Positions 104 through 25,309 of a stretch of 64,000 bases of DNA are shown here, piece after piece (the first letter of the stretch is position 1; the number at the start of each line of letters is the position of its first letter). The DNA is from Clarkia xantiana subsp. parviflora (Eukaryota > Streptophyta > Magnoliopsida > Myrtales > Onagraceae), in assembly GCA_036873135.1 (NCBI GenBank), contig JAPTYO010000027.1, positions 2,127,195 to 2,191,194 of the forward strand, in the 5' to 3' direction. The notes beneath the pieces were generated by a model. It worked only from the letters and a program-made list of their open reading frames with translations. It was not told the origin of the DNA and did not search any database. The translations under genes and the position numbers were made by a program.

Positions 104-706
104 CAGCAGGTCCAGTCGCATAGCGAGCACATTGCCTACTGAAAAATCCAACTCCCGGATACCTCGGACGATATCTATGCCTAAGTTTACCATTTGCGGA
201 CTACTGTTCCAAACTCAACACCATCCATGTGTGTTCATTAATCAGGCCATTCGTCCAGCATGCGACGAATTATGAACCAGTCAGATGTAGCCGTGGGGCA
301 TTCCTATTAAGATCAAGCATGGTTGAAGCAGCAGGTCCAGTCGCATAGCGAGCACATTGCCCACTGAAAAATCCAACTCCCAGGTACGAGAAGTTGTGAT
401 CATTTTTATCCCCGAAATTTGAGTTTTTCCTTACTCATTGTGCAGCTCGGATAATCATCCAAATCAAACATCCTGAAGAGCGCATCACATGTACGGCCCT
501 TCGCTCGCCGACCATTCTTATGCCAGTTATCCCAGATACCTCGGACGATATCTATGCCTAAGTTTACCATTTGCGGACTACTGTGCCAAACTCAACACCA
601 TCCATGTGTGTTCATTAATCAGGCCATTCGTCCAGTATGCGACAAATTATGAACCAGTCAGGTGTAGCCGTGGGGCATTCCTGTTAAGATCAAGCAAGGT
701 TGAAGA
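104..706 (+). repeat. Shuffled direct repeats in element X
   Basis: The block at 104-156 recurs almost exactly at 331-382, and the block at 157-330 recurs at about 533-706. The second block contains the phrase CTCAACACCATCCATG, which is also found in element Y just after 4391. The arrangement looks like local duplication and rearrangement. No coding signal is evident. Confidence 0.75.
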
Positions 707-799
707 TAGAAAACATCTAGAGATGTTCCTATTAAAAAAGATCGAGATTCCATGAAGATACCGTGCTAATGAAAGAGCATTTGAGAGGAACTCAGTTTC

Positions 800-1790
800 T
801 TTAGGGTCACAGCCGCCCTTTAATCGGCTACAGGAAAATAAAGAGAGTGTTTGTGCTAATATTGTGAGAGCAGTGAAGAAATAAAAGGGTCACAGTTGTT
901 CCTAAATCAACTACAAATAAAAGGGTCACAGTCATCCCTAAAATGACTATAAAAAAAAAGGGCCACGGCCACCCTTCAAATGGCTACAGATAAAGAGCAC
1001 TACCGCAACATCAAAAGCGGAGAATAAATGAAAGGCCTGTGAGGGCGGGAAAATAAAAAGGGTCACAGTCGTCCCTAAAACGACTACAAAATAAAGGGTC
1101 ACAACCACCCTCCAAACGGCTACAAATAAAAGAGTGACCCCGCGAATCTTGTAAGGGCGAAAAAATAAAAAAGGGCCACAGTTGTCCCTAAAACGACTAC
1201 AAAATAAAGGGCCACAGTCACCCTCCAAACGGCTACAGATAAAAGAGTGACCCCGCGGATCTTGGAAGGGCGGGAAAATAAAAAAGGGTCACAGTCGTCC
1301 CTAAAACGACTACAAAATAAAGGGCCACAACCACCCTTCAAACGGCTACAGATATAGAACACTCTCGCAACATTGAAGGCGGGAAATGAGTGAAGGGGCC
1401 ACAGCCACCCCTAAAATGGCTACCAACAAAGAGTGTTCCTCGAATCCTGAGAGGATGGGAGATTATTGAAAGGGCCATAGACACCCTCAAAATGACTACA
1501 TATAAAGAGTATTCTCGTGAATCGTGTGAGGCAGGGAAATCATTTGAAAGGGCCACAGCCACCCTTAAAACGGCTACAAATCGAAAGAGCACTCCCGGAA
1601 CATCGACGAAGGAAATAAATGAAAGGGCCACAGCCACCCTCCAAATGGCTACAAATCAAAAGAGCTCTCGCGACATTGTAGACGGTGAAGAAAGGGTCAC
1701 AGCCACCCTCCAAATGGCTACAAATACTCTCGCGTCGAGACTAGAAATAAAGTACGGGTCACAGCCACCGTTTAATCAGCTACAAAAAAA
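800..1790 (+). repeat. Array of about 16 potential pseudoknot units in element X
   Basis: Each unit reads AGGG, then YCAC, then a 5-base arm AGYYR, then CCCT, then an A-rich spacer, then a second arm YRRCT. AGGG can pair with CCCT, and the two 5-base arms can pair with each other. The pairings interleave, as in an H-type pseudoknot. Arms seen: AGCCG/CGGCT (811-815, 825-829), AGTTG/CAACT (894-898, 908-912), AGTCA/TGACT (930-934, 944-948), AGTCG/CGACT (1067-1071, 1081-1085) and AGCCA/TGGCT (1632-1636, 1646-1650). Some units also have a hairpin CCCGC...GCGGG between them (1252-1256 with 1270-1274). Several units pair imperfectly. The repeats are certain; the structure is inference. Confidence 0.85.
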
Positions 1791-2099
1791 AGAGTGCTTC
1801 CGTTAGGTTGACAACCCGTAACGGCAGCCTAGGAAAAATTAGGAAATGAGGGGCATGATAGCGAATTCAGAAATTGCAATCATGGCTAAAGGAGAGAAAA
1901 TAAAATCTCGATGGAATGAAAACCCCAAAGGGCAATCCATGCAAAAATTAGGAAAACCGAGGGGCACGGTCTAAAATTCTGACCGTGGCATAAGGAGAGA
2001 ACATGAGAGATTAAAAAAAAAAAAAAGATCCCGCTAAGCTGTCGCGTCATGCGCAGATTAGGCAAAAATTAGGGACATGCATTCAAGTCGTCAAGCCAC

Positions 2100-2650
2100 T
2101 CGAGGCCCTTATCCAACGGACGCCACTAGAGGCATTTCTCTGACATATGCCACTAGAGGCTCTTCTCCGACGGACGCCACTAGAGGCTCTTTACTTTATT
2201 GTACGCCACTGGAGGCTTTTCCTTGTCGCACGCCACTGGAGGCATCGTCGATCGATGTTTTTCTTTTCTGCACGCCACTGGAGGCTTTACTTTTCCGCAC
2301 GCCACTAGAAACTTTACTTTTCCGCACGCCACTGGAGGCTTTACTTTTCCGCACGCCACTGGAGGCTTTACTTTTCCGCACTCCACTGGAGGCTTTACTT
2401 TTCCGCACGCCAGTGGAGGCTTTACTTTCCCGCACGCCACTGGAGGCTTTACTTTCCCGCACGCCACTGGAGGCTTTACTTTCCCGCACGCCACTGGAGG
2501 CTTTACTTTCTGCACGCCACTAACGGCTCTTTACTTTTCCGCACCGCCACTGGAGGCTTTAATTTTCTGCACCGCCACTGGAGGCTTCACTTTCTGCATC
2601 GCTAATGGAGGCACCGCCAACAGGCGTCCAGCCGACAGAGGTTTTATCTT
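2100..2650 (+). repeat. 27-bp tandem array, core CGCCACTGGAGGC
   Basis: About 18 units share the core CGCCACTGGAGGC followed by TTTACTTTTC and a short link. Most units are exactly 27 bp, so the frame is kept and several frames stay open on both strands, reading as 9-residue repeats. The open frames come from the repeat length and the lack of stops in the unit, so I do not call a protein. The array ends about 150 bp before the LTR at 2798, as expected for a 3' untranslated array. Confidence 0.85.
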
Positions 2651-2797
2651 TCCGCACCAGAATAAGCATATGAGCCACCTTGAAGACTTTGAAGAATTGG
2701 AAGAGAATATACTTTCTGGCCAAAATCAGTGTTTCCTCGTCTTTGGACAAACCCCTTCGAACACGTTTTACAGGAGTCCTTCCAAAGAGGGGCAAAC

Positions 2798-4391
2798 TAT
2801 AAACACTCGATTTTGACCCAGACGTAACGACGTTACACATCAAATTCCGGACGCGTCAAGCCACAAAGTCTCCAAAAATGCTCAAGGGCACATTAAAGAA
2901 ATTATTATAAAATATATTTTAAATTATTTCGAATTTATTTAATATTTTCGGAATTTTTTAAAAAATATATATAATAATTAGTTTTTTTATTTTAGAAAAT
3001 TATCTGTAAGATATTTATCTCCAGACATTATTTTTTTTCAAAAAAAATAATTATCTGTAAAGATAAATATCCTTAGGAACATTCTCTAGAATAATTATCT
3101 GTTAGCATTTTTTATTTAAATTTTATCTGTAATCTAGACTAGGTTTTTAGTATAAAAGGGGTCTAGGTTTACATTGTAATGGGACAGAAAAAACACAAGA
3201 AAAGTAATAATACATTATTTCTCGGATTCTGTGCAATTTCGTCTTCTAGTGCTCAAAAAAGTTTTTTTTTTTTGTTTTTTTTTTCTGTTGCAGGTCCTGC
3301 CCGCCGGAGATCCCGACGGCCGCCCCAGTCAGGCCGTGCTGACCACCTCGCCCCGCCGGCTCGGGCCGCCGGCGCCGCCGGATCCCGTCCGCCCATCACC
3401 CAGCCGGTAGCCCCTCCGGCCACCACGACGACCGGAACCGCCGCTCTCCGGCCACGCTGGTGACCCTGCCGTCCTTCTCTCTCTCCGCCTACTCTCTCTC
3501 CCTCTCTCGCTTTCTCTCTCTTCTCTCTCTCTCTCTCCACGACTGGAGCTCACCACGACCCAGCCCCCATCGCTCCGCCTCGCCTGCCGGAGAACGCCGC
3601 CCAGTCAGATCGGCCACCCTTTCCGTGACCACGCCAGATCTGTCTTTCCCTTCGATGGCCGCCAGTTGTTGTCCGTTGTGCCACTGCCGCCTCCACCGTC
3701 CTTGCCAGAATACCCGACGCCGCTGCCGCCCGCTGGTTGATGTCTGCAGTCAGTCCGGCCATCCCCACCGTGGAAGCCATCTTCCTGCGCTGGTGAGTTT
3801 CTTTTTATTTTTTTATTTTTTTTTTATCAGCAATTGTTTTATAATTTTATTTTAGTATATTGATATATTAAAATAATTATATTGATGTTAATTTAGTTAT
3901 GGGTAAATAATTACATGTAAAAACATTGTCTATCTTATTATTTTCAAGTATATGTTACATAGTAGAATTAATTTAATATAAATAGTGTTGAATTTTGATA
4001 AAGTTTAAATTAATTAAATAATAAAAGGATTAGCGTATATTCGTCCTGTTGGTTTGTGTCGATTCAATTATATTTGTAAATAGTCAATATTATACGATTT
4101 TATGGTCGTTCACGCTTGGAATTCATTTATAATTGATCAACAATAAAATTGGCAAATTAAGTGAATTGAGTACCGAAAGGACATAGTTAAAAATTATAAT
4201 TTTAATTCGTAACAGAACCCCTGAACTCGAATTTCTAATCGTAGACCGATTTTACGCCTAGGTGTTTAAATCGTTATTCGCTTAGGTAATTTAGGATTCT
4301 AGTTAACCTAATCATTAACTAGTGGCAACTCTTTAAAAACTGCACGTTTTCAAAACTTAAATTCGCCATAGGTCAGATTTTAGGTCCGACA
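2798..4391 (+). mobile_element. LTR-A, copy 1 (3' LTR of element X)
   Basis: The LTR starts TATAAACACTCG (the terminal TG has mutated to TA; copy 2 keeps TG) and ends TTTTAGGTCCGACA. A polypurine tract touches its left edge. It has a TATA box TATAAAA at 3151-3157, a GC-rich exon-like block, a poly-T run, then AT-rich sequence. Its last roughly 300 bp match LTR-B (6416-7926) well, while the first half differs, so the two are subfamilies of one family. The near-identical copy in the duplicated segment is at 16588-18219. Confidence 0.8.
3294..3792 (+). other. GC-rich exon-like block inside LTR-A
   Basis: The block is preceded by a poly-T tract ending CTGTTGCAG (an acceptor-like site) and followed by GTGAGT and another T-rich tract (a donor-like site). 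It is strongly GC-rich, with a CT microsatellite near 3476-3540, in sharp contrast to the AT-rich DNA around it. It lies downstream of the LTR TATA box, so it would be a second leader exon if spliced. Open frames across it are short and proline/arginine-rich, and I do not trust them as protein. LTR-B has the same architecture. Confidence 0.5.
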
Positions 4392-4744
4392 CTCAACACC
4401 AACCATGTGTGTTCTCCAACCAGGCCATTCATCCAGCATGCGACGAGCCTAAACTGATGGGTGCTAACCGTGGAGCATCCCGAAATGAGATTGAGCAATA
4501 GTCGGGGCACTTGAGAAGCCGATGGAAGAAATCGTTGCCTATGTCATCTATTGGTCGTAGGGTCAATCCTGGGCGTCGACACGACCGACATATTTTGAAT
4601 CAATCAACTAAGTCCTTCTCTAGAAGATGTTTTGAATTAGAATTTCAGATTTGCCACTAGGGGCATGTACATAATTGTTGTTGAATTTTCTTAAAAAAAA
4701 AAAGCTAAACAGCAAAAAAGTAAAAAAAAAAAAAATCATTTTTC

Positions 4745-5300
4745 TTTAGGGTCACAGCCGCCCTTTAATTGGCTACCGATAAAAATAAACAGAGTGCTCA
4801 TACAAATTTTGTGAGAGCAGTGAGGAGATAAAAGGGTCATAGTTGTCCCTATATCAACTACAAATAAATAGGGTCTTAGTCGTCCCTAAAACGATTACAA
4901 AGAAAGGGCCACAACCACCCATAAAATGGCTACACAAAAAGAGTGATCCCGCGAACCCCGAAAGGGCGGGAAAATAAAAGAAAGGGTCACAGTCGTCCCT
5001 CTAAATGGCTACAATCAAAAGAGCGCTCCCGGAACATCGATGGCGGGTATTAAGTGAAAGGGCCACAACCACCCTCAAAATGGTTACATACAAAGAGTGT
5101 TTCCCGGATCAGAGACGAGGAATAAAGGGCCACAGCCACCCTCCAAATGGCTACAATCAAAAGAGCTCCCGCAATATTGAAGACGATAAGAAAAGGGTCA
5201 CAGCAACCCTCCAAACGGCTACAAATACTCCCGCATCGAGGCGAAAAATAAAGTACGGGTCACAGCCACTATTTAATCGGCTACAAAATAAAGAGTGCTT
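4745..5300 (+). repeat. Pseudoknot-type array in element Y, copy 1
   Basis: About nine units have the same plan as at 800-1790. The unit at 5059-5085 has arms AACCA (5067-5071) and TGGTT (5081-5085), which differ from the commonest arms at both partner positions yet still pair. AGGG 5059-5062 and CCCT 5072-5075 form the interleaved pairing. Compared with copy 2 (18575-19205), copy 1 has one unit fewer near 4907-4940. Confidence 0.8.
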
Positions 5301-5589
5301 CCGCTAGGTTGAAAACCCGAAAGGGCAGCCTAGGCAAAATCAGGAAATGAGAGGCATGGTTGCAAGTTCAGAAATTGCAATCATGGCAAAAGGAGAGAAA
5401 ATAAAAAAAACCGAGGGGCACGGTCGGAAATCTCTCAATCGGCCGTGGCAAAAGGAGAGAAAAAAAAGAAATTTTCAAAAAAGAAAAAAAAGAAAAAAGA
5501 GAAAGATCCCGCTAAGTTGTCGCGCCATGCACAATTTAGGCAAAAATTAGGGACAAACATTCGTGCGCCTTTGTATTATCTACGGTACA

Positions 5590-5780
5590 ACGTTTTCCAA
5601 GTCAACATCATGGCAAGCCGGAAGGTTACAGTTTGCTCTCGCGAGTCACCATTCAAGGATGAGTAGGACTGTTACAGTCTGTTCCTACGAGTCAACTTCA
5701 CGGCAAGCGGGACAGTTACAGTCTGCTCTCGCAAGTCACCACTCAAAGGATGAGTAGGACTGTTACAGTCTGTTCCTAAG
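5590..5780 (+). repeat. Two-copy direct repeat of about 118 bp
   Basis: The sequence from GTCAACATCATGGCAAGC through GATGAGTAGGACTG is repeated once with changes such as CTTCACGGCAAGCGGG. Both copies contain GGTTACAGT or AGTTACAGT followed by CTGCTCTCGC-like text. Function is unknown. Confidence 0.6.
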
Positions 5781-5869
5781 GTCACAACTGACAATCATGA
5801 TCTGAAGTTTTCCAGCTTTCTGAGAGTCACCCCCGACGAACGAAGCCTTAGTATTCAGCCTGCGCAAGT

Positions 5870-6260
5870 CACGCCACTAGAGGCACTTCTCCAACGGACC
5901 CCACTAGAGGCACTTCTCCAACGGACGCCACTAGAGGCTCTTCTCCGATACACGCCACTAGAGGTTTTTTACTTATCGCTCGCCACTGGAAGCATCATCG
6001 ATTAAGGTTTTACTTTATTGCACGCCACTGGAGGCTTTTTCTTGTCGCTCGCCACTGGAGGCATCAACGATCAAGGTTTTACTTTACTGCACGCCAATGG
6101 AGGCTTTACTTTTCTGTACGCCACTGGAGGCTTTACTTTTCCGCATTACCAGTGGAGGCATTGCTAACAGGGGCACCGCCAACGGAGGTTCTACTTTCTA
6201 CACCGCCAACAGGGGCACGCTAATGGAGGCACCGCCAACAGGGGCACCGCCAACAAAGGC
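5870..6260 (+). repeat. Irregular GCCACTRGAGGC array in element Y, copy 1
   Basis: Repeats of the same core as at 2100-2650 (GCCACTAGAGGC, then GCCACTGGAGGC), but with variable links and an additional type, CACCGCCAACAGGGGC. The array sits just upstream of the polypurine tract, as in element X. Confidence 0.7.
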
Positions 6261-6401
6261 TCTACTTTTTCGCACCATCAATAAAGCCAAAGGCCACCTT
6301 GGAGACTTGAAGACCCGGAAGAAGATATAGTTCCTAGCCAAAATTAGTGTTTACTCGTCTTTGGACAGGCCCCATCGAATGCATTCTACGGGAGTCCGTC
6401 C

Positions 6402-6415
6402 AAAGAGGGGCAAGC
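6402..6415 (+). other. Polypurine tract of element Y
   Basis: AAAGAGGGGCAAGC immediately precedes the LTR start TGTAAACACC. Position and composition fit a plus-strand priming site for reverse transcription. Confidence 0.75.
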
Positions 6416-6984
6416 TGTAAACACCTAATTTTGGTACGTGCGACACGTATGTAACATGTTAAAAATGTTATGTATAACACGTTTAAAAAAGGAAATATCT
6501 AAATATGGAAGGTCATGGGGTTGCTAAAATAGGTTTAGCTTAAATTAGGATAATAGATATGTATTCAATACTATGTAATATTCAGAAAATATATATTATA
6601 TATTTATGGTAATATTATTCATAAATATATATATATAATTTTCGGAATTTTAGGTGTATATTGAGGCAAATATTGCCTAAAGCATATACTTCACCATATG
6701 CTTTCCTAATTTTTATGGTCTAGTTTAGTTATAAATAGGGTCCTTAGTTACATGTAAAAAGACCACATCAATAATAATACATCAAGTCTCGAATTCTGTG
6801 GAAATCTTGTCTTCTAGTGAAAAAGTATTTTTTTTTTAAACAAATTTATTTATTCCGCAGCAACACCAGCCCACCGGAGCCTGGCCTCGGCGCCGGTGGC
6901 CGCCCCTCTACACCTCGGTCCTCCACCTCTGTCAGCCCTGCATCCCTGGCGCCTCACCGTCTCTCTCTCTCTCTCTCTCTCTCT

Positions 6985-7030
<46 letters not shown>

Positions 7031-7926
7031 TTTCTTCTTCGTTCACCTAGTCTACTCGGCCGGAATCGGAGCTCGCCGGGATTTCCCCATCGCCATCCTC
7101 ACCGGAACTACCACCACGCCTTCCACCGGTGACAGCCAGCCCGCTACATTGCCACCACACCTCGTCGATCCGGCCAACTCCCGACCACCCCTCTGCTGCC
7201 AAGGTTCTGGTCAGTCACCTTCGCCCTCCGCCTGGTGCCTGCTGCTCCGCCCCGCCAGGCTGCCCTCTTTGACTTGCTGCCGCCGGAATTCGTTCCATCG
7301 CGCCACCATGTTGTCGCCGGAAATGACCTGCCACCCTTGAAGAAGCCTTCGTTCCGCAGGTGAGTGCGTCTCCTCTTTTTTTTTTTTTTTTTTTTTTTGT
7401 TTGTTTTGTATTTTTTTCATTACTTTATTATTTTGTTATTATATATTATTATATTATTATGTTATTATTATTTTATTATCATATATTATTATTATATTAG
7501 ATGTAGTTAATTTGTTTAACTCTAGTTAATTTAGACTAATGACTAATTAAAACTTGATTAATCCAATTATGTTTATGTGAACATGTTAGGTTATGTTTCG
7601 ATGTGAATATATTCGATAACGCTATTAGGTTTTTTTTTTTTTAATGAAATTGGTTCACAATAAATAATACTTGATAATAAATTGGCAAAATAAGTGAATT
7701 GAGCAACGAAAGGGCGTAATTAAAAATTGTTAATTTTTAATTTGTAACAGAACCCCAGAACTCGAATTTCTGATCGTAGACCGAATTTGTACCTAGGTGT
7801 TTAATTCGTTATTCGCTTGGGGTAATTTAGGATTCTAGTTAGCCTAATAATTAACTAGTGGCGACTCTTTCAAAATTGCACGTTTTTTAAACGTAATTCG
7901 CCGTAGGTAAGATTTTAGGTCTGACA
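6416..7926 (+). mobile_element. LTR-B, copy 1 (3' LTR of element Y)
   Basis: The LTR runs from TGTAAACACC to TTAGGTCTGACA, with a TATA box TATAAATA at 6730-6737. A GC-rich block at 6861-7359 follows TATTCCGCAG (acceptor-like) and ends at GTGAGT 7360-7365 (donor-like). It includes a (CT)n run near 6959-7027. The distal part resembles LTR-A. Directly after 7926 the sequence becomes the copia element, so X/Y sit inside or at the edge of Copia-1. The partner TSD is not in the window. Confidence 0.8.
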
Positions 7927-8489
7927 TAAACGATTTATACCATGGGTTAAACCCGGAATAGGCGCCACGCACGCGTGTATCTCGGAAGACGGATCACATC
8001 GTATCAGAGAACGAATTTAATGACGAAGTGTTTTAATGAATGAATGCGTGCCTCCCTTTGGGAATAACTCATTTAATACTTACATGACGAAAAGAGGTAT
8101 GCTTCACAAGCTAACCACAAACTCTTAGAGATAGATAACGTACTTGAGATGAATTATCAAATAAAAGGATGACGTCGGTAAAATGACTCTCCAACTAAAT
8201 GCCTTGAACGACAAGTATGGCAAGACATTCATATCGATAACACACTTCAACAGGCATGGTTTGAAAACATAATGTTAGTGTTCGACAACCAACGTTCCCT
8301 ATGGAATAAAATGCAGTTGACTCACATCAATGTAGAAATACGTTTCAATAAAATCGGTCAAACACGACGCCATAAAAGCTAAAAGGAATGATAACGAGGT
8401 AAAGTTTATCATCATGCGACATTAATTTGCGCATTAAACGAGTATTCAGATCAAGAGTAGGACAACTACTCTTAGAGGATACATGTTTA
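7927..8489 (+). mobile_element. Copia-1 internal sequence before the readable pol, copy 1
   Basis: No convincing frame survives here. By position it should be the integrase part of copia pol, and scattered short open stretches are broken by many stops. The same text recurs at 21821-22384 in copy 2 with about 1-2% changes. Confidence 0.45.
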
Positions 8490-10686
8490 AATTAGCTTGG
8501 GATAATGGTGCCGTGGTCGAACATGGGACGTTACATTCCTTGACGACGAATTTCTAACGCTTGGTGAAATCAAAACAGATGAAGTTTTGATCGAAATGGA
8601 GCAGGATGATAATGATGGTCAGGTCCCACTTACTTCGAGTGGGAGATATGAGCAAGCAACGCAAGTGAATGACATGGTAAATGAAGATGGAGACATTTTC
8701 ATAGTAAATCAAGTGGGAGGAGACAATCCTACCACACAAATCATTATTGCTGCAAATGTGAATCAAGTTGAACCTTATAATCATGTTGCCGGACCACTGG
8801 ATGAAAATCCAATAATACCACAACTACCCATTGTTCCTAGTGGGAGTGGATCAAAAGACTTGGTTCCAGATCCTAGTGATCAAGGAATTCATCTCGGAGG
8901 TAAAATCCTGAGACCGAGAAGTCGCCCAAGAAAAGTTGTAGGTCAAGGTTCTAGCACTGCCCTTGTTCCCAGTGGGAGTGATGCTCCGGTTAGAAGCATT
9001 ATTCCGAGTGGGAGCAACGTTCAGACTCAAGATGGGTTTAACGAGCCTAGACAAAGTGAAAGATATCAAACTTCTCCCAAGAAGTATCCCATCGAGAAGG
9101 GTGAAATTTTTACCCTAACTTCTGTTGACGAACCGATAACGGTTCAACAAGCGTTGAAAGAACCTCAAGCGAAGGAATGGAGGAAAGAAATGGAGGAAGA
9201 GATCACCTCAATGAAAGCCAATTCGGCATGGTATTTAGTTGATTTACCTGCTAACCGCAGAGCCATAGGGGCTAAGTGGGTTCTGAAACTGAAACTCACT
9301 GCTGATGGAAATGTCGAGCGATACAAAGCCCGACTAGTTGAGAAACACCTAGCTTCACGGAGTAGACTTTGATGAAACATACTCACCGACTGTACGTTAC
9401 ACCAAAATAAAGGCCATCCTAGCCCTGGTCACATGCCTCGATCTAGAGCTGCACCAAATTGATGTTAAGACCGCGTTCCTCCACAGAAACCTGGAGGAAG
9501 AAATCTATAAGGACCAACCGGAGGGTTTCATTACTCCCGGTAACGAACGAAATTTTTTAAACTCCAAAGACCCATTTACGGTCTTAAACAATCATCTCGA
9601 CAATGTACCGCAGATTCCACGAGGAAATCGTTGGAAACGGATCCGTGAACCTTCACAAGGATCCATGAGTTTATACAAAGACCTCTGAGTCTAAGTACGT
9701 CATCTTAACCTTATACGTGGATGACATACTCATTGTTGCGAATGATGTGTGTTTCATGAATGAATTGAAGTCCTGGTTGGCATTTGTATTTGAAATGAAA
9801 GACATGGGAGAGGCTACGTTCATCTTGGGCATTAAAATTGCTAGAGATCATGCCGCCCGGATGTTATATCTATTTAGGAAGCCTATATCAACAAACTGTT
9901 GAAATGGTTCAGATTACAGGATGCCAAACCCGTGGAGACGCCAGTAGTATTCGGGTGCGCGTTGTCAAAACGTGACGGCCCGAAAAACCAGCAGAGTGTG
10001 ATCAGATGAGGAGTACAGAGTATTTAAGCACGGTCGGAAGTCTCATGTATGCCATGCTTTGCACTCGTCCGGACATCTGTTACGCTGTGTGCCTAGTAGC
10101 AAAATTCTAATTAGACCATAGCTATTAACATTTAAAGGCTGTAATACGGATTATACGTTATCTGAACGGTACTGCCGACTATGTACTGTGCTATGAGGGC
10201 TGGAAGTTAGAATTAACCGGTTTCAGTGACGCCGACTATGGTAGCAATCCAAACGATCGTAAGTCCACCACAGGAGGAGTCTTTCTCCTTGCTAATGCCC
10301 CCATTTCATGGACGAGCACTAAGCAATCTTGTGTCACGCTGTCTACGATGGAATCGGGATTCGTTGCTCTCTCCAAAAATGCAAAGGAACCAGTCTGGCT
10401 GAAAAGGCTTCTTACTGCGCTGCTTGATGACGATGTTGGGAGTAAGCCAGTTAAGGTGTACTCTGACAGTCAGGCAGCTACTGCGGCTGTTAAGAATCCA
10501 AAGTACCATAGCAGGACTAAACACATTGATGTGAAATAAAATTATGCTAAATCTATGGTAGAAGACAATATAATCACTTTATAATACACGCCCACTGATG
10601 ACATGGTAGCAGGCCCATTAACTAAACCATTATGCAAAGAGACATTTGAAAAGCACGTTAAACTGCTTGGATTGCAGAGTATTTAA
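8490..10686 (+). pseudogene. Copia-1 pol remnant (integrase end, reverse transcriptase, RNase H), copy 1
   Basis: In order: an integrase tail (LDDEFLTLGEIKTDEV at about 8545), a serine/glycine-rich linker, then reverse transcriptase. The RT shows EPQAKEWRKEMEEEI, GAKWVLKLK, DVKTAFLH and the catalytic YVDDILIV near 9715. RNase H follows, with STMESGFVALS, YSDSQAA and RTKHIDVK, ending LLGLQSI and a TAA at 10684-10686. These are hallmarks of Ty1/copia pol. The frame is broken by a small deletion near 9346, a lost base near 9604 (shared with copy 2, so older than the duplication), a stop at the end of RHIDVK and others. The product cannot be made. Copy 2 is 22385-24576 plus 35886-35902. Confidence 0.9.
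8638..9014 (+). repeat. Five copies of the octamer AGTGGGAG in the copia integrase-RT linker
   Basis: The octamer lies at 8638-8645, 8712-8719, 8839-8846, 8971-8978 and 9007-9014. It is identical to the core of this element's own polypurine tract at 11800-11807. Four copies lie in one frame and read Ser-Gly-Ser/Arg; the copy at 8712 lies in another frame. Confidence 0.75.
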
Positions 10687-11808
10687 AAGTTGGCATGTAT
10701 CTGTGATAACATTTTGATAATTGAAAGTTACATTTTTAATGGATGAGAGAATTGCAAATCGAGTTTATGATTCATTGACGTCATAATGTTTGATTACATC
10801 GGATTTTACGGTCTATAAACTGAGTCGTTGGAGTACGCAATCCTCTGCCTAAATTATGTCGAGTGTGGGCCTTGCCTCGTAACACGGGCACGACCATCTT
10901 GTAGGAGAGGGGGACCTCTACCGTAACAAGACTGACTAAGAACTAGAGGGATAAACTTGGTTACGCAAAACGATCATTTGGTTTTGGAGTAACCCGACAT
11001 GATTTTCATTTTGTACATCGCCGTGATGAACTCTGTTCGTCATTAACCACATTCTTGGCCAGATGAATCTTCTGCGATATCATTGTTGACATATCCCACG
11101 CCTGACATTGTTCGGGTATGCTATCGACACTTTCTTCATACTACCCGTGCCATGTTCGACCACGGGGTCAGGCTCAGTTGTGCTAGTTAGAATCCTCGAG
11201 ATTCGTATTGGCGCAAACTTCTTCATCTCGAGCGAATGATTGATCCCGGGAGACTTATGAAGAGGAACCCGAAGTATCCTCATGGACTCAGAACTCATAA
11301 GGTCAGGCTAAATGTTCGCTTCCCGGCGTACGAACGTAGTGCTGAAGAAAAATGCCAAGTGACCACGTTTTTGGAAACCGGTTGGGTTTGACTAAGGGTA
11401 TAAGCGATGGGAATGGTCAAGTTCACTTGTAATTCACTGACTCTCGTATTCACTAGGTTGACACTAGCCGAATATTAGCTGATTGTTGTGTATACTTGTA
11501 CAGATGCCTCGGAGAAGTATTCCTATGTGGAAACCAGGCAATCGGAGAATTAACATTTGACCTAGGATACAACGGGTTACAATTTAATTGTTTTTCAACA
11601 GGTTGATTGGAAATAGGGAATCAACGTTCCGCGGGCGCTACAGCACTCCTAACAGATGAGTAGGACGATGCCTGTCGTATCCGCCGGTCGCACGGCAAAC
11701 CTCGTATGAACTATTCGGAAGCAGGGGCAAGATCGGAAAAATGAAATGTTGATATGATTTGGTTAACAATACATTAACAGGCACTCTCCCATTCCGGCGA
11801 GTGGGAGC
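10687..11808 (+). mobile_element. Copia-1 3' untranslated region, copy 1
   Basis: The region has no supported gene and lies between the RNase H stop and the 3' LTR. It matches 35903-37021 (copy 2) with about 20 differences by eye. It also matches, inverted and more distantly, 62479-63592 of the second copia. It ends with the polypurine tract AGTGGGAGC at 11800-11808. Confidence 0.75.
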
Positions 11809-12036
11809 TGTTAGCATATGGTGATTGGGCGCCGTAAATGGAAGCCCATTAATATGTATATGTTACCTGACACAACTGGGTAAATGTCACATTAGAGAAA
11901 TTGGGCTAGACCAAATCCAAATTGACATGAGAGGCCCAAAATTGGGCCTCCCTTATACCCAAGGCCAGCCGAAACTAGTGAGTGGGCAAAGTGGAGTTTT
12001 GTTTACATTGTTCCTACTATAAATAGGGAGTGTTAG
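11809..12036 (+). mobile_element. Copia-1 3' LTR, left half (copy 1)
   Basis: The half starts TGTTAGCATATGG directly after the polypurine tract. A TATA box TATAAATA lies at 12018-12025. At 12036 the LTR is interrupted by Tat-3, whose insertion duplicated GTTAG (12032-12036). The missing half is at 56723-57091. Together they make about 597 bp, close to the 601 bp of the uninterrupted copia LTR at 61878-62478. Confidence 0.85.
12018..12025 (+). promoter_or_regulatory. TATA box of the Copia-1 LTR
   Basis: TATAAATA at the expected place in a copia LTR. The Tat-3 insertion lies only 11 bp downstream, so the start-site region is cut off from the rest of the LTR. Confidence 0.7.
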
Positions 12037-12694
12037 TGTTTCGTCCAGACCCGCTTGATTTAATGAGCTGTCGAGTCTTCGGGTTGATCTCTATGTTAGG
12101 TCTTTCTGTTCACGCTCCTTGATCCGAGCTCGCTGTCCGAACCTGCACACGGAGCAGTAACTATCACGGAGAGGGGGGGGGGGGGTGGTGCTAGTTGAGC
12201 CCTCTCCGATGCTTAAATAAGAATTCTAGAGAGATAAAGCAAGAGAGAAGTCAGAGCTCCTAAGCCAATCTCAAGTGAAGATAAAGAATAAAATAGGTGG
12301 CCTAGGTCCCTTTTTATAGGCAACCTTATAACCGACTCCGATTTTTGTGCGGTTCGACGCCGGTTTAAAAGAAAGTGTGAACCGGCGTCTGATTTGATCA
12401 AGGTTGGCTACTGGAAAACTCTAACATAGTGTAAGAACACAAATGGAACACGCACGCTGCAGACGACGACTCGGATCACGTCGGATTTGGGCAATCCTGG
12501 CGTGATCTGGATCACTTAGGGTAATCCGGACCCCTCCGGATTGCCAGCAATCCAGAGATTAGGTCTGGACGCGTGTGTCGCGCTTCCGGACCGTTTTGAC
12601 CCTCGGGAATGTGTTTTGATCCGTGTATGTGATTTTGACGTGTTTACGAAGTCAGAAATGTAAATACGAACCCGAATTGGGCAGATATCCATCA
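12037..12694 (-). mobile_element. Tat-3 3' LTR, copy 1
   Basis: On the minus strand the LTR begins TGATGGATATC and ends GGTCTGGACGAAACA (658 bp). A polypurine tract, CTCGGGGCAAG in minus sense, abuts it at about 12695. TATAAAAA in minus sense lies near 12308-12322. A G13 run at 12173-12185 lies in a 9-bp inverted repeat (CGGAGAGGG 12167-12175, CCCTCTCCG 12200-12208). The copies are 37250-37906 and, as 5' LTR, 56095-56717. Confidence 0.85.
12200..12217 (-). other. Conserved LTR block TTTAAGCATCGGAGAGGG
   Basis: This 18-base block is shared by the LTRs of Tat-3 (12200-12217; one change at 56251-56268), Gyp-1 (25152-25169) and Gyp-2 (41752-41769; two changes at 49691-49708), though the rest of these LTRs differs widely. 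It lies downstream of each TATA box, so it is transcribed leader or U5 sequence. Confidence 0.7.
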
Positions 12695-13287
12695 CTTGCC
12701 CCGAGTCAAGTAATGTTTCAAACCTTGCTTGACTCTATTTTAAGATAGGATAAATGCCCAATTTAGGTTCGGTGCTGACCTCAGAGGTTGATTGATCGTC
12801 AATTGGGCATGCGGGCCTTGATTTCGCCTATCCTTAATTTTTTTCTTGGCGAGTAATTTGATATCTGCTGGTAGGGTTAGTGTAGCAGAGATGTGTATAT
12901 ACTATAAATGCATGTGAAGAGTTATAAATTTGTGTAATCACATTTAAGGATATTGACATGTATAAGAATGCATCTATCGCGGACGTGTTAGACATGGACG
13001 TGTCTGACACGGGCGTGACGGGAGCGTCTAAAGTAATAAGGGCGTCCATGATGTAATGACGTGTGACTAATAATAAAATCATGCAATCAATTATGTAATG
13101 ATGAAAATGCGGATCATGAATTAAGATAGATTAGATGATCACAAATAAATCATGGATATGTAACACATGAGCATGATTGCATACGTCGAGTCTAAAAATG
13201 ATGAATGTTGTATCATGGGTGTAAAACACTTAGTCATGCTACTAAAGACTTGTAAAAAATAGAGAGGGATCAAGGATTACCCATAGG
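12695..13287. other. Tat-3 3' untranslated sequence, copy 1
   Basis: No gene is supported. The stretch lies between the Tat-3 3' LTR and the plus-strand TATA box of its antisense gene. It is AT-rich with several CGTGT-type short repeats near 12990-13030. The copy is at 37907-38497. Confidence 0.6.
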
Positions 13288-13295
13288 TATAAATA
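13288..13295 (+). promoter_or_regulatory. TATA box of the Tat-3 antisense gene (copy 1)
   Basis: TATAAATA is on the strand opposite to Tat-3 gag. About 30 bp downstream begins a purine-rich leader (GAGAGAGAGC), followed by a GC-rich first exon ending at 13576. The same box is at 38498-38505 in copy 2. Confidence 0.6.
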
Positions 13296-13319
13296 CTACT
13301 AGTGAAAATGAGAGAGAGC

Positions 13320-15920
13320 ATTCACTCTCATTTCTTGAAGGAGAAGAAACTTGGGGTCATCAAACTTAGGCACCAAGTCACATTGGCCGGCCACATTTAA
13401 TCACCACCATGGTGATGGGACGGCGGTGAGGAGCAACGGCAGCACGGGGGTGGCTCACGGCTTTTTGAGCGGCGGTGATATTCTCGGCAGTGGCGGCGCG
13501 TGGCTTTCACGGCGGCGACGAGATTTTCCGGTGGCCTTTGGAGGCGTTTTCACGGTGGTCCGATCGGCTTGAGGTGGTAAGCTCAGTTTCGGGTATGGCT
13601 AAACTATTTGCAACCTTTCTTGGGTCCTATTTGATCTTGATTGTCTCTTGAAATTGTTTACTCTAGTATGCCCATAAGGTGTTTGTTCTTCTACCAGAAG
13701 TTAGTTCTACAAATCGGCCAAAATTTTGGCTAAGTGCTGAAAACTTATAAACATGATTGTAAGTAGTAATACTCCCCTCAGATATAGTGATCGTTGTTGA
13801 CTTGTTGCATCATGACGTAGATAGTGTTCAAACATGCTTGACGTTGATTGTTGATAGTTGATAGTTGATCATTGTTATCTCCCTCATGATGAAGCACTTG
13901 AAAAATATTTCTTGGTAGTTGACGCTTACTACTTGACATCTGTCGTCTGCTATCATGGTGAAACACTTAGAAAAAATTTATTTGCTCAGCTTAGCTCTAT
14001 GACCATACTAGTATAGTGACTAGCATGTCGTCAACCCATGCATGCGTCCACTTGATATCATAATCATGATTGTTGTAGAAGTTGAATTTAATCTTCTCCT
14101 GACTAATCACATGAGTAGGTAGGAACAAACGTCGCGGACGTGACCATTGCATGCGTGTTCACTGCGCGCGTTGCTTGTTGTATACATGATCATAGCGTGC
14201 GTGATGTAGTATCTTGAACACTTAGAATTTCTCAAGCGTGTTGAAGCATATGTTGTAGTCGTTAAACAATGGTGTAGCATTATGAAAGCGCGTCGTTTGT
14301 CACGTATGTGCTCGACGCGTGCGCACTCAGCGCGCGTGTTGTAACCACTTGAACACTTAGATTTCTTCCTTGTACGTCAATATACATGTAGTCCTGCATT
14401 AATTCGAAGATACATGCAAGTATAAATGTTAGTGCCATAATCATATCTGCACTTGTTACCTTAAGTAAAGGCGTAGTATCATGTAGATGCGTGTAGATCA
14501 CGTAAAACACGTAGGTGTCGGGACGAGGCCCATGTCGACATAAAGTTGCCCCCCGCAGGGGATGTTCACTATGTGATGTATAGAGACTAACAAGTCTGTA
14601 GATACGTAGTTGTCTCCATATGGAGAGTGTTCGTTTCTTAGTGTTTGCATGGGTGACTGTCGCGTATGCGCGCGTTTATCGAGTTGTTATTTGCACTTGC
14701 AGGTTGGAGCGATAGGACAGTTCTTCTTGGGTTCGTGCTTGCACTTGATCTGAGATAGTCGTTATGAGTAATTCCCCCATTCCTACTCCGCAGGTTACTT
14801 TATGTTCAGACGTCAGTGACGAATCATAGGCCGACTTGACATTCTTCATCGATAGTGAGTTAAGAGTCGACGTTGATCACACCCAAGAGCCTGCAGCCAA
14901 ACCAGAGACGATGGATGTGACATAGTATTTTTGTATCAACCGGATAAACGAGTAGCGGTATATGCTGGGCACATCTTCTTCCGGACTTTGTCCAAACCTG
15001 GAGGCTGTATTTCCTTTCGACGTGCTCCCAGGTGTCACCCAAGGTCAATCCACGGTACCTCCAGACGACCTGTCCGCTGTTTACTTGGGACAGATTCGGG
15101 AGGGCTTGCGCTTTCCTTATTATCTAGACTTAGTTGATCACTGCCGGTTTTACCAGATCTCACCTTAGGATTTTGCGCCTGTGGGACTCCGCGTGTGGAC
15201 TTGTTTCCGAGTACTATTTCATCAGTAGTCGTGGCATTATTCTACATTTATCTTTCGTTGCTTCTACCAAGTTTTGCGTCCAGATGTAACAGGGTTGTGT
15301 AGCATGAAGATGTGTTGGCCTTGTTTGCAAGAGAAGGGGTTCACGACACTTGGGCTTGAAGACACATAGTGGGATAGTGATGCCAGACTCGCCGCGAGGG
15401 CTGACCGTTCCGGTCCTCATTGGCGACATCAGTACTTCTTTTTGTGTAATGTTGGCACTACTTGGGATACTGCGCATGTTACGGAGGCTGATCCTGCCCT
15501 CGCTTTCTCTAAGCTCTCTTCTGCGGATAGGAAGGTCTTGAAGCACATATATCAATGTCTGCAGGCACGCACTTATCAATGTCTGTTGTGTGCATCAGAC
15601 CAGGAATTGATTGACGCAGGGATTCATGTGCTTTCTTCTGAGGATTCGGTATGCTAAGAACCTTTATAACTTCCTATTATATTGTGATGTAGGTTGGTTA
15701 TGGAAAGAACTCGTCCTTGCAGACGGATCCTGCTCGTGTCACTTCTTCTGCTAGGAAGGTGGCGCCGTCTCTTGCTCCTTCCACTCTTAAGGCTTCTGGA
15801 CATGCCCGCGGCAAGGGATTGATGAGTAAGATAATTCCTTGTGATTTTCATTTTCCTTACTATTCTCTTATGTTGTTGTTCTTAACTTGTCTTTGTTTGC
15901 AGGTCGCTCGGCTCACGTGA
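13320..15920 (+). pseudogene. Tat-3 antisense gene, 5' part, copy 1 (decayed and truncated by the duplication)
   Basis: A multi-exon gene on the strand opposite to gag. A leader exon ends at donor GTAAGC (13577), and an intron of about 1.1 kb ends at TTGCAG (14702). A coding frame starts MSNSPIPTPQ at 14764. The core shows IREGLRFPYY, then LAPVGLRVWTCF, and later GPHWRHQYFFLCN. This pattern resembles the putative gypsy-type transposon domain (PF04195) known from additional ORFs of Tat elements. A clean 77-bp intron lies at 15826-15902 (GTAAGATAA...TTTGCAG). Five in-frame stops between 14764 and 15228 are all TAG. The gene is cut at 15920 by the duplication junction; its full 3' part follows copy 2. 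Confidence 0.65.
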
Positions 15921-15923
15921 GGC
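15918..15923. other. Tandem duplication junction
   Basis: The sequence up to CACGTGA (15920) matches 41130-41136. From 15921 on it matches the repeat array of element X near 2131-2161. The two parents share only about 2 bases (GA) at the join, so this looks like illegitimate joining, not homologous exchange. Confidence 0.85.
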
Positions 15924-16587
15924 TCTTCTCCGACGGACGCCACTAGAGGCTCTTCTCCGACGGACGCCACTAGAGGCTCTTTACTTTACTGTACGCCACT
16001 GGAGGCTTTTCCTTGTCGCACGCCACTGGAGGCATCGTCGATCGAGGTTTTTCTTTTCTGCACGCCACTGGAGGCTTTACTTTTCCGCACGCCACTGGAG
16101 GCTTTACTTTTCCGGACGCCCTTGGAGGCTTTACTTTTCCGCACGCCACTGGAGGCTTTACTTTTCCGCACTCCACTGGAGGCTTTACTTTTCCGCACGC
16201 CACTGGAGGCTTTACTTTCCCGCACGCCACTGGAGGCTTTACTTTCCCGCACGCCACTGGAGGCTTTACTTTCCCGCACGCCACTGGAGGCTTTACTTTC
16301 TGCACGCCACTAGAGGCTCTTTACTTTTCCGCACCGCCACTGGAGGCTTTACTTTTCTGCACCGCCACTGGAGGCTTTACTTTCTGCATCGCTAATGGAG
16401 GCACCGCTAACAGGCGTCCCGCCGACAGAGGTTTTATCTTTCCGTACCAGAATAACCATATGAGCCACCTTGAAGACTTTGAAGAATTGGAAAAGAATAT
16501 ACTTTCTGGCCAAAATCAGTGTTTCCTCGTCTTTGGACAAACCCCTTCGAACACGTTCTAGGGGAGTCCGTCCAAAGAGGGGCAAAC
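15921..16587 (+). mobile_element. Element X 3' end with 27-bp array, copy 2
   Basis: Matches about 2131-2797. The 27-bp array runs from about 15930 to 16430 with the same core, ending in the tract AAAGAGGGGCAAAC. It is again open in several frames. Copy 2 has a different unit order near 16100-16140 (a unit with CGCCCTTGGAGGC). Confidence 0.85.
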
Positions 16588-17293
16588 TGTAAACACTCGA
16601 TTTTGACCCGGACGTAACGACGTTACACATGATACGTCAAATTCCGGACGCGTCAAGCCACAAAGTCTCCAAAAATGCTCAAGGGCACATTAGGGAAATT
16701 ATTATAAAATATATTTTAAATTATTTCGAATTTATTTAATATTTTTGGAATTTTTTAAAATATATATATAATAATTAGTTTTTTATTTTAGAAAATTATC
16801 TGTAAGATATTTATCTCCAAATATTATTTTTTTTTCAAAAAAAATAATTATCTGTAAAGATAAATATCCTTAGGAATATTCTCTAGAATAATTATCTGTT
16901 AGCATTTTTTATTTAAATTTTATCTGTAATCTAGACTAGGTTTTTAGTATAAATAGGGGTCTAGGTTTACATTGTAATGGGACAGAAAAAACACAAGAAA
17001 AGCAATAATACATTATTTCTCGGATTCTGTGCAATTTCGTCTTCTAGTGCTCGAAAAAAGTTTTTTTTTTTTTTTTTCTGTTGCAGGTCCTGCCCGCCGG
17101 AGATCCCGACGGCCGCCCCAGTCAGGCCGTGCTAACAACCTCGCCCCGTCGGCTCGGGCCGCCGGCGCCGCCTGAAGCCGCCGGATCCCGTCCGCCCATC
17201 ACCCAGCCGGTAGCCCCTCTGGCCACCACGACGACCGGAACCGCCGCTCTCCGGCCACGCTGGTGACCCTGCCGTCCTTCTCTCTCTCCGCCT

Positions 17294-17332
<39 letters not shown>

Positions 17333-18219
17333 TTCTCTCTCTTCTCTCTCTCTCTCCACGATTGGAGCTCACCACGACCCAGCCCCCATCGCTCCGCCTC
17401 GCTTGCCGGAGAACGCCGCCCAGTCAGATCGGCCACCCTTTCCGTGACCGCGCCAGATCTGTCCTTCCCTTCGATGGCCGCCAGTTGCAGTCCGTTGTGC
17501 CACTGCCGCCTCCGCCGTCCTTGCCAGAATACCCGACGCCGCTGCCGCCCGCTGGTTGATGTCTGCAGTCAGTCCGGCCATCCCCACCGTGGAAGCCATC
17601 TTCCTGCGCTGGTGAGTTTCTTTTTTTTTTTTTTTTTTTTTTTTATTTTTTTTATCAACAATTGTTTTCTAATTTTATTTTAGTATATTTATATATTAAA
17701 ATAACTATATTGATGTTAATTTAGTTATGGGTAAATAATTACATGTCAAAACATTGTCTATCTTATTATTTTCAAGTATATGTTACATAGTAGAATTAAT
17801 TTAATATAAATAGTGTTGAATTTTGATAAAGTTTAAATTAATTAAATAATAAAAGGATTAGCGTATATTCGTCCTGTTGGTTTGTGTCGATTCAATTATA
17901 TTTGTAAATAGTCAATATTATACGATTTTATGGTCGTTCACGCTTGGAATTCATTTATAATTGATCAACAATAAAATTGGCAAATTAAGTGAATTGAGTA
18001 CCGAAAGGACATAGTTAAAAATTATAATTTTAATTCGTAACAGAACCCCTGAACTCGAATTTCTAATCGTAGATCGATTTTACGCCTAGGTGTTTAAATC
18101 GTTATTCGCTTAGGTAATTTAGGATTCTAGTTAACCTAATCATTAACTAGTGGCAACTCTTTAAAAACTGCACATTTTCAAAACTTAAATTCGCCATAGG
18201 TCAGATTTTAGGTCCGACA
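16588..18219 (+). mobile_element. LTR-A, copy 2
   Basis: Starts with an intact TGTAAACACTCG and ends TTAGGTCCGACA. The TATA region reads TATAAATA near 16949. The GC-rich exon-like block is 17087-17611, with GTTGCAG before and GTGAGT after. It is longer than copy 1 because of an expanded CT tract (near 17295-17330) and poly-T runs. Confidence 0.85.
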
Positions 18220-20271
18220 CTCAACACCAACCATGTGTGTTCTCCAACCAGGCCATTCATCCAGCATGCGACGAGCCTAAACCGATGGGTGCTAACCGTG
18301 GAGCATCCCGAAATGAGATTGAGCAATAGTCGGGGCACTTGAGAAGCCGATGGAAGAAATCGTTGCCTATGTCATCTATTGGTCGTAGGGTCAATCCTGG
18401 GCGTCGACACGACCGACATATTTTGAATCAATCAACTAAGTCCTTCTCTAGAAGATGTTTTGAATTAGAAATTTCAGATTTGCCACTAGGGGCATGTACA
18501 TAATTGTTGTTGAATTTTCTTAAAAAAAAAAAAAAGCTAAACAGCAAAAAAGTAAATAAAAAAAAATCATTTTTCTTTAGGGTCACAGCCGCCCTTTAAT
18601 TATCTACCGATAAAAATAAACAGAGTGCTCATACAAATTTTGTGAGAGCAGTGAGGAGATAAAAGGGTCATGGTTGTCCCTATATCAACTACAAATAAAT
18701 AGGGTCTTAGTCGTCCCTAAAACGATTACAAAGAAAGGGCCACAACCACCCTTAAAATGGCAACAGATAAAAGAGTGGTCCCGCAAACCCTGTGAGGGCG
18801 GGAGAATAAAAAAGGGCCACAGCCACCCTTAAAATGGCTACACAAAAAGAGTGATCCCGCGAACCCCGAAAGGGCGGGAAAATAAAAGAAAGGGTCACAG
18901 TCGTCCCTCTAAATGGCTACAATCAAAAGAGCGCTCCCGGAACATCGATGGCGGGTATTAAGTGAAAGGGCCACAACCACCCTCAAAATGGTTACATACA
19001 AAGAGTGTTTCCCGGATCAGAGACGAGGAATAAAGGGCCACAGCCACCCTCCAAATGGCTACAATCAAAAGAGCTCCCGCAATATTGAAGACGATAAGAA
19101 AAGGGTCACAGCAACCCTCCAAACGGCTACAAATACTCCCGCATCGAGGCGAAAAATAAAGTACGGGTCACAGCCACCGTTTAATCGGCTACCAAATAAA
19201 GAGTGATTCCGCTAGGTTGAAAACCCGAAAGGGCAGCCTAGGCAAAATAAGGAAATGAGAGGCATGGTTGCAAGTTCAGAAATTGCAATCATGGCAAAAG
19301 GAGAGAAAATAAAAAAACCGAGGGGCACGGTCGGAAATCTCTCAATCGGCCGTGGCAAAAGGAGAAAAAAATTTCAAAAAAAAAAAAAAAAAAAAAGAGA
19401 AAGATCCCGCTAAGTTGTCGCACCATGCACAATTTAGGCAAAACTTAGGGACAAACATTCGTGCGCCTGTGTATTATCTACGGTACAGCGTTTTCCAAGT
19501 CAACATCATGGCAAGTCGGAAGGTTACAGTTTGCTCTCGCGAGTCACCATTCAAGGATGAGTAGGACTGTTACAATCTGTTCCTACGAGTCAACTTCACG
19601 GCAAGCGAGACAGTTACAGTCTGCTCTCGCAAGTCGCCACTCAAAGGATGAGTAGGACTGTTACAGTCTGTTCCTAAGGTCACAACCGACAATCAGGATC
19701 TGAAGTTTTCCAGCTTTCTGAGAGTCACCCCCGACGAACGAAGCCTTAGTATTCAGCCTGCGCAAGTCACGCCACTAGAGGCACTTCTCCAACGGACGCC
19801 ACTAGAGGCACTTCTCCAACGGACGCCACTAGAGGCTCTTCTCCGATACACGCCACTTGAGGTTTTTTACTTATCGCTCGCCACTGGAGGCATCGTCGAT
19901 TAAGGTTTTACTTTATTGCACGCCAATGGAGGCTTTTTCTTGTCGCTCGCCACTGGAGGCATCATCGATCAAGGTTTTACTTTACTGCACGCCACTGGAG
20001 GCTTTACTTTTCCGCACTACCAGTGGAGGCATTGCTAACAATGGCACCACCAACGGAGGTTCTACTTTCTACACCGCCAACAGGGGCACGCTAATGGAGG
20101 CACCGCCAACAGAGGCTCTACTTTTTCGCACCATCAATAAAGCCAAAGGCCACCTTGGAGACTTGAAGACCCGGAAGAAAATATAGTTCCTAGCCAAAAT
20201 TAGTGTTTACTCGTCTTTGGACAGACCCCATCGAATGCATTCTACGGGAGTCCGTCCAAAGAGGGGCAAGC
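18220..20271 (+). mobile_element. Element Y internal region, copy 2
   Basis: Matches 4392-6415. The pseudoknot-type array (18575-19205) has one unit of about 88 bp more than copy 1. This is the segment with GTGGTCCCGC and GGGCGGGAG around 18775-18805, so the array changes length quickly. The GCCACTRGAGGC array is 19775-20130. No gene is seen. Confidence 0.8.
18575..19205 (+). repeat. Pseudoknot-type array in element Y, copy 2
   Basis: Ten or so units of AGGG...AGYYR...CCCT...YRRCT. A unit near 18665 carries GGTTG opposite CAACT, a G-U pair if transcribed. The additional unit near 18740-18800 has AACCA opposite TGGCA, a weak pairing. Confidence 0.75.
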
Positions 20272-21820
<1,549 letters not shown>

Positions 21821-25292: not shown

Positions 25293-25309
25293 ACAAACAA
25301 AAAGCTGAT

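Follow-up and report, generated by a model that had tools for sequence, protein, structure and literature searches.

What are the tandem repeats that occupy two stretches between positions 800 and 5,300 of a 64,000-nucleotide region of the Clarkia xantiana subsp. parviflora genome (contig JAPTYO010000027.1, positions 2,127,195 to 2,191,194, forward strand; hereafter the window)? An earlier note on this DNA had proposed that every repeat unit of two arrays, here called X and Y, carries two interleaved stems. This held for both, and a further array, Z, adds a third case; the rest of 800–5300 is other sequence. Thousands of such 3' non-coding repeats in the genome look like tandem RNA knots with paired bases prone to change in concert, which suggests a structured RNA used by the long terminal repeat (LTR) retrotransposon that carries them. 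We observed directly the complementarity of the arms and their compensatory changes and, going beyond the earlier note, the strand of the arrays, their place in the 3' untranslated region (UTR) of what is probably a Tat-clade element, the number of matches to their unit pattern across the genome and, in the hairpins that follow them, a G-U signature of the sense strand. The whole reading, a Tat 3' UTR whose units would form compact H-type knots, with tail hairpins, and would act as a protein docking site on genomic RNA, has in our estimate a probability of about 55%.

Each unit would fold as a compact H-type knot with stem 1 AGGG/CCCT, stem 2 AGNCR/YGNCT and an A-rich loop 3. Of the 35 window units, 33 are 27 nt long and two are 28 nt; loops of 4, 0–1 and 4–5 nt are kept, and in array X ACA or a variant follows each unit, with spacers between. 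Spacer hairpins of the CCCGC...GCGGG type fold in several spacers, and all six arm pairs listed in the earlier note are present (positions of GGG): AGCCG/CGGCT at 804, AGTTG/CAACT at 887, AGTCA/TGACT at 923, AGTCG/CGACT at 1060, AGCCA/TGGCT at 1625 and AACCA/TGGTT at 5060. Its statement that every unit begins with AGGG was inexact, with GGGG at 1396 and CGGG in the final unit of each array; the latter pairs as ACGG/CCGT in X and Z and is broken in Y. Imperfect units do occur, as it had said: counting G-U as a pair, 31/35 units have a complete stem 1, 22/35 a complete stem 2 and 22/35 both. A concerted GGGG/CCCC insertion at 1396 was rejected, as CCCC occurs with AGGG in other copies and only one side changed.

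As sequence complementarity, then, the units hold two interleaved helices with short loops. A strict descriptor (four Watson-Crick pairs with at least three G/C in the 5' arm, a loop of 4, five pairs of which at least three are Watson-Crick, a loop of 0–1 and a loop of 4–5) matched 9 times in X, 6 in Y and 6 in Z, compared to 0.010–0.013 per dinucleotide shuffle of each array. The whole + strand gave 22 matches, one of them outside the arrays (mean 1.0 and maximum 4 in 20 shuffles of the window), and the − strand 11, seven inside the arrays. A coding repeat was excluded by unit spacings of 35–37 and 62–100, which are no constant multiple of three.

By an energy estimate, both helices may form together in the RNA as a pseudoknot. 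For the 22 fully paired units, the energies of the two helices add up to 7.8–15.0 kcal/mol better than the best nested fold before any knot penalty, and 20 of the 22 exceed a knot penalty of 9.6 kcal/mol. If each unit instead formed a simple hairpin, from either stem 1 or stem 2 and never both, there would be no knot, or only a switch. Either stem by itself would close a loop of about 9 nt, and nested minimum-energy folds of the 35 units choose one stem, the other or a third small hairpin, as suits that alternative; the maintained loop lengths and 27-nt unit length and the energy gap argue against it, and we consider it unlikely.

In a shuffle test of the paired columns of 28 distinct unit rows from the window, 90.1% of cells were paired versus 86.3% in shuffles and the covariation score was 0.241 versus 0.168, with none of 500 shuffles as high; the observed count of cells changed on both sides was likewise reached by none. 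Cruder measures discriminated less: pairs with a change on both sides were reached by 88 of the 500 shuffles, and further pair types by 103. Under a tree-based null with 30 distinct window units, 325 sequence pairs differed on both sides and were still paired, versus null means of 70–122 for trees from all columns (p 0–0.007) and 110–154 for trees built without the stem columns (p 0.003–0.021). With X and Y alone the same double-difference test gave p 0–0.007. A paired-cell measure was weaker (p 0–0.079 with Z, 0.001–0.258 for X and Y). Fisher tests of stem 2 in X and Y gave p of 1e-4 at position 3, 0.03 at position 4, 0.30 at position 2 and 0.11 at position 5. The joint change of both arms noted earlier is seen at four positions (2–5) of stem 2 and not three.

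Thirty-five further loci, defined as clusters among 100 listed pattern places, all within the first 4.8 Mb of contig 1 and a non-random sample, gave 264 units. These were located by the anchors GGG[CT]CA[CT] and A[CT] at a fixed distance, regardless of stem 2 and of the 3' arm of stem 1, and they include one chance match (L079 at 3267). Stem 2 was fully paired in 151/264 units, and its positions 1–4 were paired in 200/264, compared to 11,342 of 19,364 combinations (58.6%) of arms from different arrays. The six arm pairs of the window recurred (AGCCA/TGGCT in 43 units, AGTCG/CGACT in 20, AACCA/TGGTT in 20, AGTTG/CAACT in 13, AGCCG/CGGCT in 11 and AGTCA/TGACT in 7). The six commonest arm pairs of the sample, 149 of the 264 units, are all Watson-Crick at positions 1–4 and show GC/AT, CG/TA and CG/TA at positions 2, 3 and 4. 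Full pairing was found in 7 of 39 arm-pair types confined to a single array and in 11 of 18 types present in at least three arrays.

Compensatory double changes in stem 2 exceeded a tree-aware null in these copies, the outcome on which the earlier proposal of covarying stems depended. Across 218 distinct units and eight trees (null n=150 per tree), changes on both sides that ended paired numbered 12–25 on trees without stem columns (null means 3.1–5.4) and 5–15 on all-column trees (null means 2.1–3.3), with p of 0/150 in six of the eight trees and of 0.027 and 0.007 in the other two. Changes on both sides that ended unpaired numbered 0–5, versus null means of 2.0–4.8. A null for paired cells proved too harsh (null means 326–633 of 980 on all-column trees) and was set aside in favor of the event counts.

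Stem 1 is mostly uninformative because it is nearly invariant (AGGG/CCCT in 206 units) and because its GGG served as the sampling anchor. Covariation was nonetheless found in both helices, in stem 1 through two further compensated types and few events. One is ACGG/CCGT, read one base upstream in the final unit of 18 arrays (18 units), a register in which 3 of 233 A-first units also pair; the other is CGGG/CCCG in three arrays. CGGG/CCCA in one array (L067) is unpaired at the changed place, and 28/264 units pair stem 1 in neither register. Transversions or an inserted base gave rise to the compensated types; C-to-T decay did not. Adenines in loop 3 are called for by A-minor contacts in H-type knots; the two free columns of loop 3 are 98–99% A, with 1.82 and 1.90 bits compared to 0.83–1.81 bits in the free stem columns.

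The tail 3' of each array would fold into conserved hairpins, and here the strand can be read. From 41 rows, a limit of 24–34 nt removed 11 long chance matches and left 30 hairpins, five from the window (the limit also omits shorter second hairpins of the X type). Among their 240 cells, 195 were Watson-Crick, 31 G-U, 3 A-C and 11 other; since RNA from the + strand is expected to show G-U over A-C, this bias fits sense RNA. The two paralogous hairpins that follow an array differ at pairs 2 and 6, where one has TA and the other CG. Of 11 variable pairs in the three window tails, six keep G-U by a change on one side, one is a double change, four break and none goes by A-C, a tally whose structure was predicted from the same sequences and which therefore favors the G-U outcome. 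The last units and the tail (X 1618 to about 2087) are also among the best-kept parts between X and Y, with identity of 0.80–0.89 per 100 columns. Earlier array bins give 0.48–0.89, some with few aligned columns, and one bin of nine columns 0.33; the stretch with the 27-bp repeats and the polypurine tract gives 0.63–0.82, the end with U5 and the primer-binding site (PBS) 0.87–0.90, and the rest of the LTR 0.39–0.75. Interfamily recombination could also produce this conserved island.

We next consider where the arrays lie (Table 1). Behind each comes the same order of parts: hairpin-rich tail, 27-bp array, polypurine-like AAAGAGGGGCAARC, LTR start (TGTAAACAC, in X TATAAACAC), TATA box and a PBS-like TGGCRACTC (TGGAGACTC in Z). 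The X-type LTR has a TATA-like TATAAAA at 3151 and a PBS-like TGGCAACTC from 4323, and the Y-type LTR has TATAAATAGG at 6730 and a PBS-like TGGCGACTC from 7859. The two LTR types share 62% identity, and each matches its own duplicate at about 98%. Our first thought, from the TATA box, that the arrays sit inside an LTR was abandoned: the polypurine tract, the LTR start and the integrase of other copies place them in an internal 3' UTR.

Table 1. Positions of the arrays and of the LTR-element parts around them in the window
Feature	Position	Strand	Remarks
Array X, 16 pseudoknot-like 27-nt units	803..1784	+	unit = AGGG, YCAC, arm 1, CCCT, A-rich loop, arm 2
Structured tail X, conserved hairpins 3' of array	1785..2084	+	fold z-score -3.13
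27-bp repeat array, GCCACTGGAGGC core, between array X and LTR	2095..2612	+	
Polypurine tract-like AAAGAGGGGCAAAC, directly 5' of X LTR	2784..2797	+	from sequence; LTR start by alignment
X-type LTR	2798..4322, ends approximate	+	boundaries inferred
Array Y, 9 pseudoknot-like units	4748..5285	+	
Structured tail Y	5288..5562	+	fold z-score -3.86
27-bp type and related repeats between array Y and LTR	5871..6255	+	
Polypurine tract-like AAAGAGGGGCAAGC, 5' of Y LTR	6402..6415	+	from sequence
Y-type LTR	6416..7858, ends approximate	+	boundaries inferred
Array Z, 10 units, near-copy of Y	18579..19193	+	
Structured tail Z	19196..19466	+	

The arrays would thus belong to the 3' UTR of a Tat-clade Ty3/gypsy family, in sense direction, after the integrase and before the polypurine tract. 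The 3'-UTR assignment follows from other copies in which the array lies 3' of an integrase on the same strand, as in three of the 35 short loci (L065, L086 and L092). In L065 the integrase open reading frame (ORF) stops at base 983, the first anchored unit lies at about 1402 and a match to the X-type LTR starts at 2827. An ORF in L100, a 5-kb stretch upstream of and adjoining L065, contains the end of RVT_1, RT_RNaseH_2/RT_RNaseH and then RVT_3 (PF13456). Two RNase H (RH) domains, the second (aRH) between RH and integrase (INT), are described as a feature of the Ogre and Retand groups of the Tat clade in angiosperms (PMC6317226). Judged from this order of reverse transcriptase (RT), RH, aRH and INT in one family copy, L100 with L065, the host family is probably a Tat-clade Ty3/gypsy LTR retrotransposon; for X, Y and Z themselves, no adjoining pol was found in the window.

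Genome-wide, the unit pattern AGGGYCACAGYCR-(0-1)-CCCT-(3-6)-YGRCTAC had 8,578 exact matches (4,254 forward and 4,324 reverse) in 695.6 Mb, and the reversed pattern had none. Because the pattern includes part of stem 2, this count covers units still close to the main types. In the sampled loci an array has up to 19 anchor-matched units (L069). The exact pattern had no match in viral contigs and prokaryotic genomes; a looser one matched 53 viral contigs once each, which we take as chance.

Several observations bear on neighboring sequence. The window contains another Tat-like element, a Gypsy element at 24577–35885 with 697-bp LTRs that are 99% identical, gag-pol pieces, antisense ORFs at 32405–33709 and 33697–34584, and its own 26–27-bp array after the integrase (30906–31714), in which spacer hairpins TTAGATTTATTCTAA versus TTAGGTTTATCCTAA show a compensatory A-T to G-C change. 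By eye, its GCCTTGAGTGG repeat resembles the 27-bp GCCACTGGAGGC repeat (2095–2612, 5871–6255 and 15919–16402) in opposite orientation relative to the element. Among the best 120 of 7,988 matches, the RT of a neighboring element has relatives in Prunus, Striga, Acer, Sesamum, Dendrobium and other genera at about 55–62% identity, which marks the host as a flowering plant; the top-ranked one is labelled Salmonella, which we take for contamination. A further repeat set with short inverted repeats (e.g., GGACTGTTACAGTC) lies 3' of the Y and Z tails (5598–5738 and 19498–19676), and decayed Ty1/copia reverse transcriptase (RVT_2) lies downstream of the Y and Z LTRs (8506–9685 and 22482–23249). Positions 2129–15919 and 15919–24576 plus 35886–41136 form a 13.8-kb tandem duplication, 93–98% identical, with its junction at 15919 inside a 27-bp array and later split by a retrotransposon.

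A number of results weigh against tandem knots in a Tat 3' UTR. As to place, 32 of the 35 loci had no integrase match in the roughly 1–1.5 kb fetched upstream, and two longer upstream stretches lacked the family integrase next to the array. In one (L097, 7.9 kb) the ORF matches were all antisense; in the other (L098, 9.4 kb) an integrase lies far from the array and is 85.6% identical to that of the other Tat-like element of the window. Positions 7006–9086 of the latter, with L080, hold an X/Y-like LTR end, a weak gag-like match and then the array, with no integrase between, and this copy looks like a non-autonomous deletion derivative that kept the array. As to known RNA families, Rfam covariance models gave no match at gathering in the window, and the sole match in 600–5600 at E up to 10 was mir-515 (E 6.1), outside the arrays; ARAGORN found no tRNA genes in the window. 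A ribozyme, riboswitch or tRNA-like structure was rejected for want of an Rfam or tRNA match.

As to the stems, one control slid by +1 reached p 0.029–0.054 on double differences. AGCCA/CGGCT, with A-C at position 5, is frequent (42 units in 26 arrays), and 7 units of 6 arrays have AACCA/CGGCT, which is mismatched at 2 and 5. One-sided stem-2 changes from a pair mostly break it (30–47 kept, 66–96 broken), keeping it in 30–37% versus 39–49% in null means; we read the excess of breaking as decay of dead copies. The main result against an RNA reading of the units is the missing G-U preference in stem 2, with 49 G-U and 110 A-C in the 264 units. A-C at position 5 accounts for 69 units, and without that position the counts are 39 G-U and 41 A-C. 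We read position 5 as not needed and positions 1–4 as dominated by decay after insertion. Of the earlier pseudoknot proposal, the geometry and the stem-2 covariation stand; position 5 is not constrained. Positions 4 and 5 form CpG in AGTCG/CGACT-like types, trees are weak when built from about 40 columns, and descent and local duplication relate the units to one another. Part of the covariation could come from CpG decay or template switching.

These points bear on whether the repeats have any RNA function. They may be ordinary Tat 3'-UTR tandem repeats, with complementarity inherited from a single ancestral unit and with double changes produced by CpG decay on both strands and by switches of template from one arm to the other in reverse transcription or replication. 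Tandem repeats are frequent 3' of pol in Tat elements and are a source of plant satellite DNA (PMC7004042); how they arose and what they do is called unknown in the accounts cited (PMC11963269, PMC7004042), and template switching is reported to fix stems and make multibase compensatory changes (PMC8794818). Stem 2, with no G-U bias, mostly breaking one-sided changes and CpG at positions 4–5 of some types, agrees with this. The 31 G-U against 3 A-C of the tail hairpins on the sense strand speak for function, as do loop-3 adenines conserved at least as much as the free stem columns, the preservation of last units and tail together with the PBS end, and stem-1 changes that are transversions or an insertion on both sides. 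On balance we regard an absence of RNA function as rather unlikely.

The excess of A-C over G-U in stem 2 also raises the question of strand, since an A-C on the + strand reads as G-U on the − strand. The structure might belong to the antisense RNA, given that antisense ORFs occur in this region of Tat elements; Retand elements are reported to have them there (PMC11963269). The tail hairpins are biased the opposite way, loop 3 is A-rich on the + strand only, the strict descriptor inside the arrays matches 21 times on + and 7 times on −, and the stem-2 bias is gone without position 5. An antisense origin of the structure therefore seems very improbable to us.

We hold the sense-RNA structure with more confidence than any function; folding in the cell, a protein partner and export or packaging are what we infer from it. 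Under the preferred reading, the arrays would be a repeated protein docking site on genomic RNA, like a retroelement transport or packaging element, with many units offering many binding sites. The location fits a retroelement RNA transport element. We give a docking element for export or packaging roughly even odds against all other functions together. Both LTR types contain a GC-rich, exon-like stretch between a 3' splice-site-like CAG and GTGAGT (3294–3792 and 6861–7359); if transcripts are spliced, an export element would be useful.

A different function would be that of a translation enhancer, like the upstream pseudoknot domain in the 3' UTR of tobamoviruses, binding eEF1A. The tobacco mosaic virus domain consists of three pseudoknots and binds eEF1A/GTP (PMC4683447), and it shares with our arrays the host kingdom and consecutive knots in a plant 3' UTR. 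It belongs to a virus and stands beside a tRNA-like structure, with three knots compared to up to 19 units per array in a retrotransposon here. Against such a role, Rfam and ARAGORN found no neighboring tRNA-like structure in the window. In addition, the element RNA would presumably be a capped, polyadenylated Pol II transcript, which counts against it, and we judge an enhancer role improbable.

Closer comparisons come from retroelements. The musD transport element, which serves RNA export of a mouse LTR retrotransposon, is likewise a structured cis RNA with a pseudoknot, but is one complex fold with a kissing loop and not an array (PMC5767303, PMC12786077). Ty1 offers a functional knot in LTR-retrotransposon RNA, but a single one at the 5' end near the primer site (PMC4974528), and for yeast Ty3, packaging and localization to the retrosome are reported to require POL as well as both UTRs (PMC11381356). 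Ogre and Retand elements resemble the present family in the RT-RH-aRH-INT order, the position between integrase and LTR, and arrays of short units between pol and the 3' LTR; those repeats are treated there as DNA, whereas units here have two interleaved covarying stems (PMC7004042, PMC11963269). The words 'pseudoknot', 'hairpin' and 'secondary structure' do not occur in the main text of one of these studies (PMC11963269), and among the open-licence papers listed none described, in its title or the opening of its abstract, knot arrays in UTR repeats of plant LTR retrotransposons.

More tentatively, the tandem array of up to about 19 knots and the hairpins may together be a multivalent export or packaging signal, and other Tat 3'-UTR repeats may be of the same functional class, fast-evolving and not by-products of copying, a reading that as a whole we consider possible though doubtful. 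If the units are selected RNA knots, the repeats have a job, and satellites born from such repeats would inherit units able to form RNA structure. Export of plant LTR-element RNA is said not to have been studied directly (PMC12786077); if the docking reading is true, the export or packaging of genomic RNA in plants would gain a testable cis element, present in thousands of copies in a single genome.

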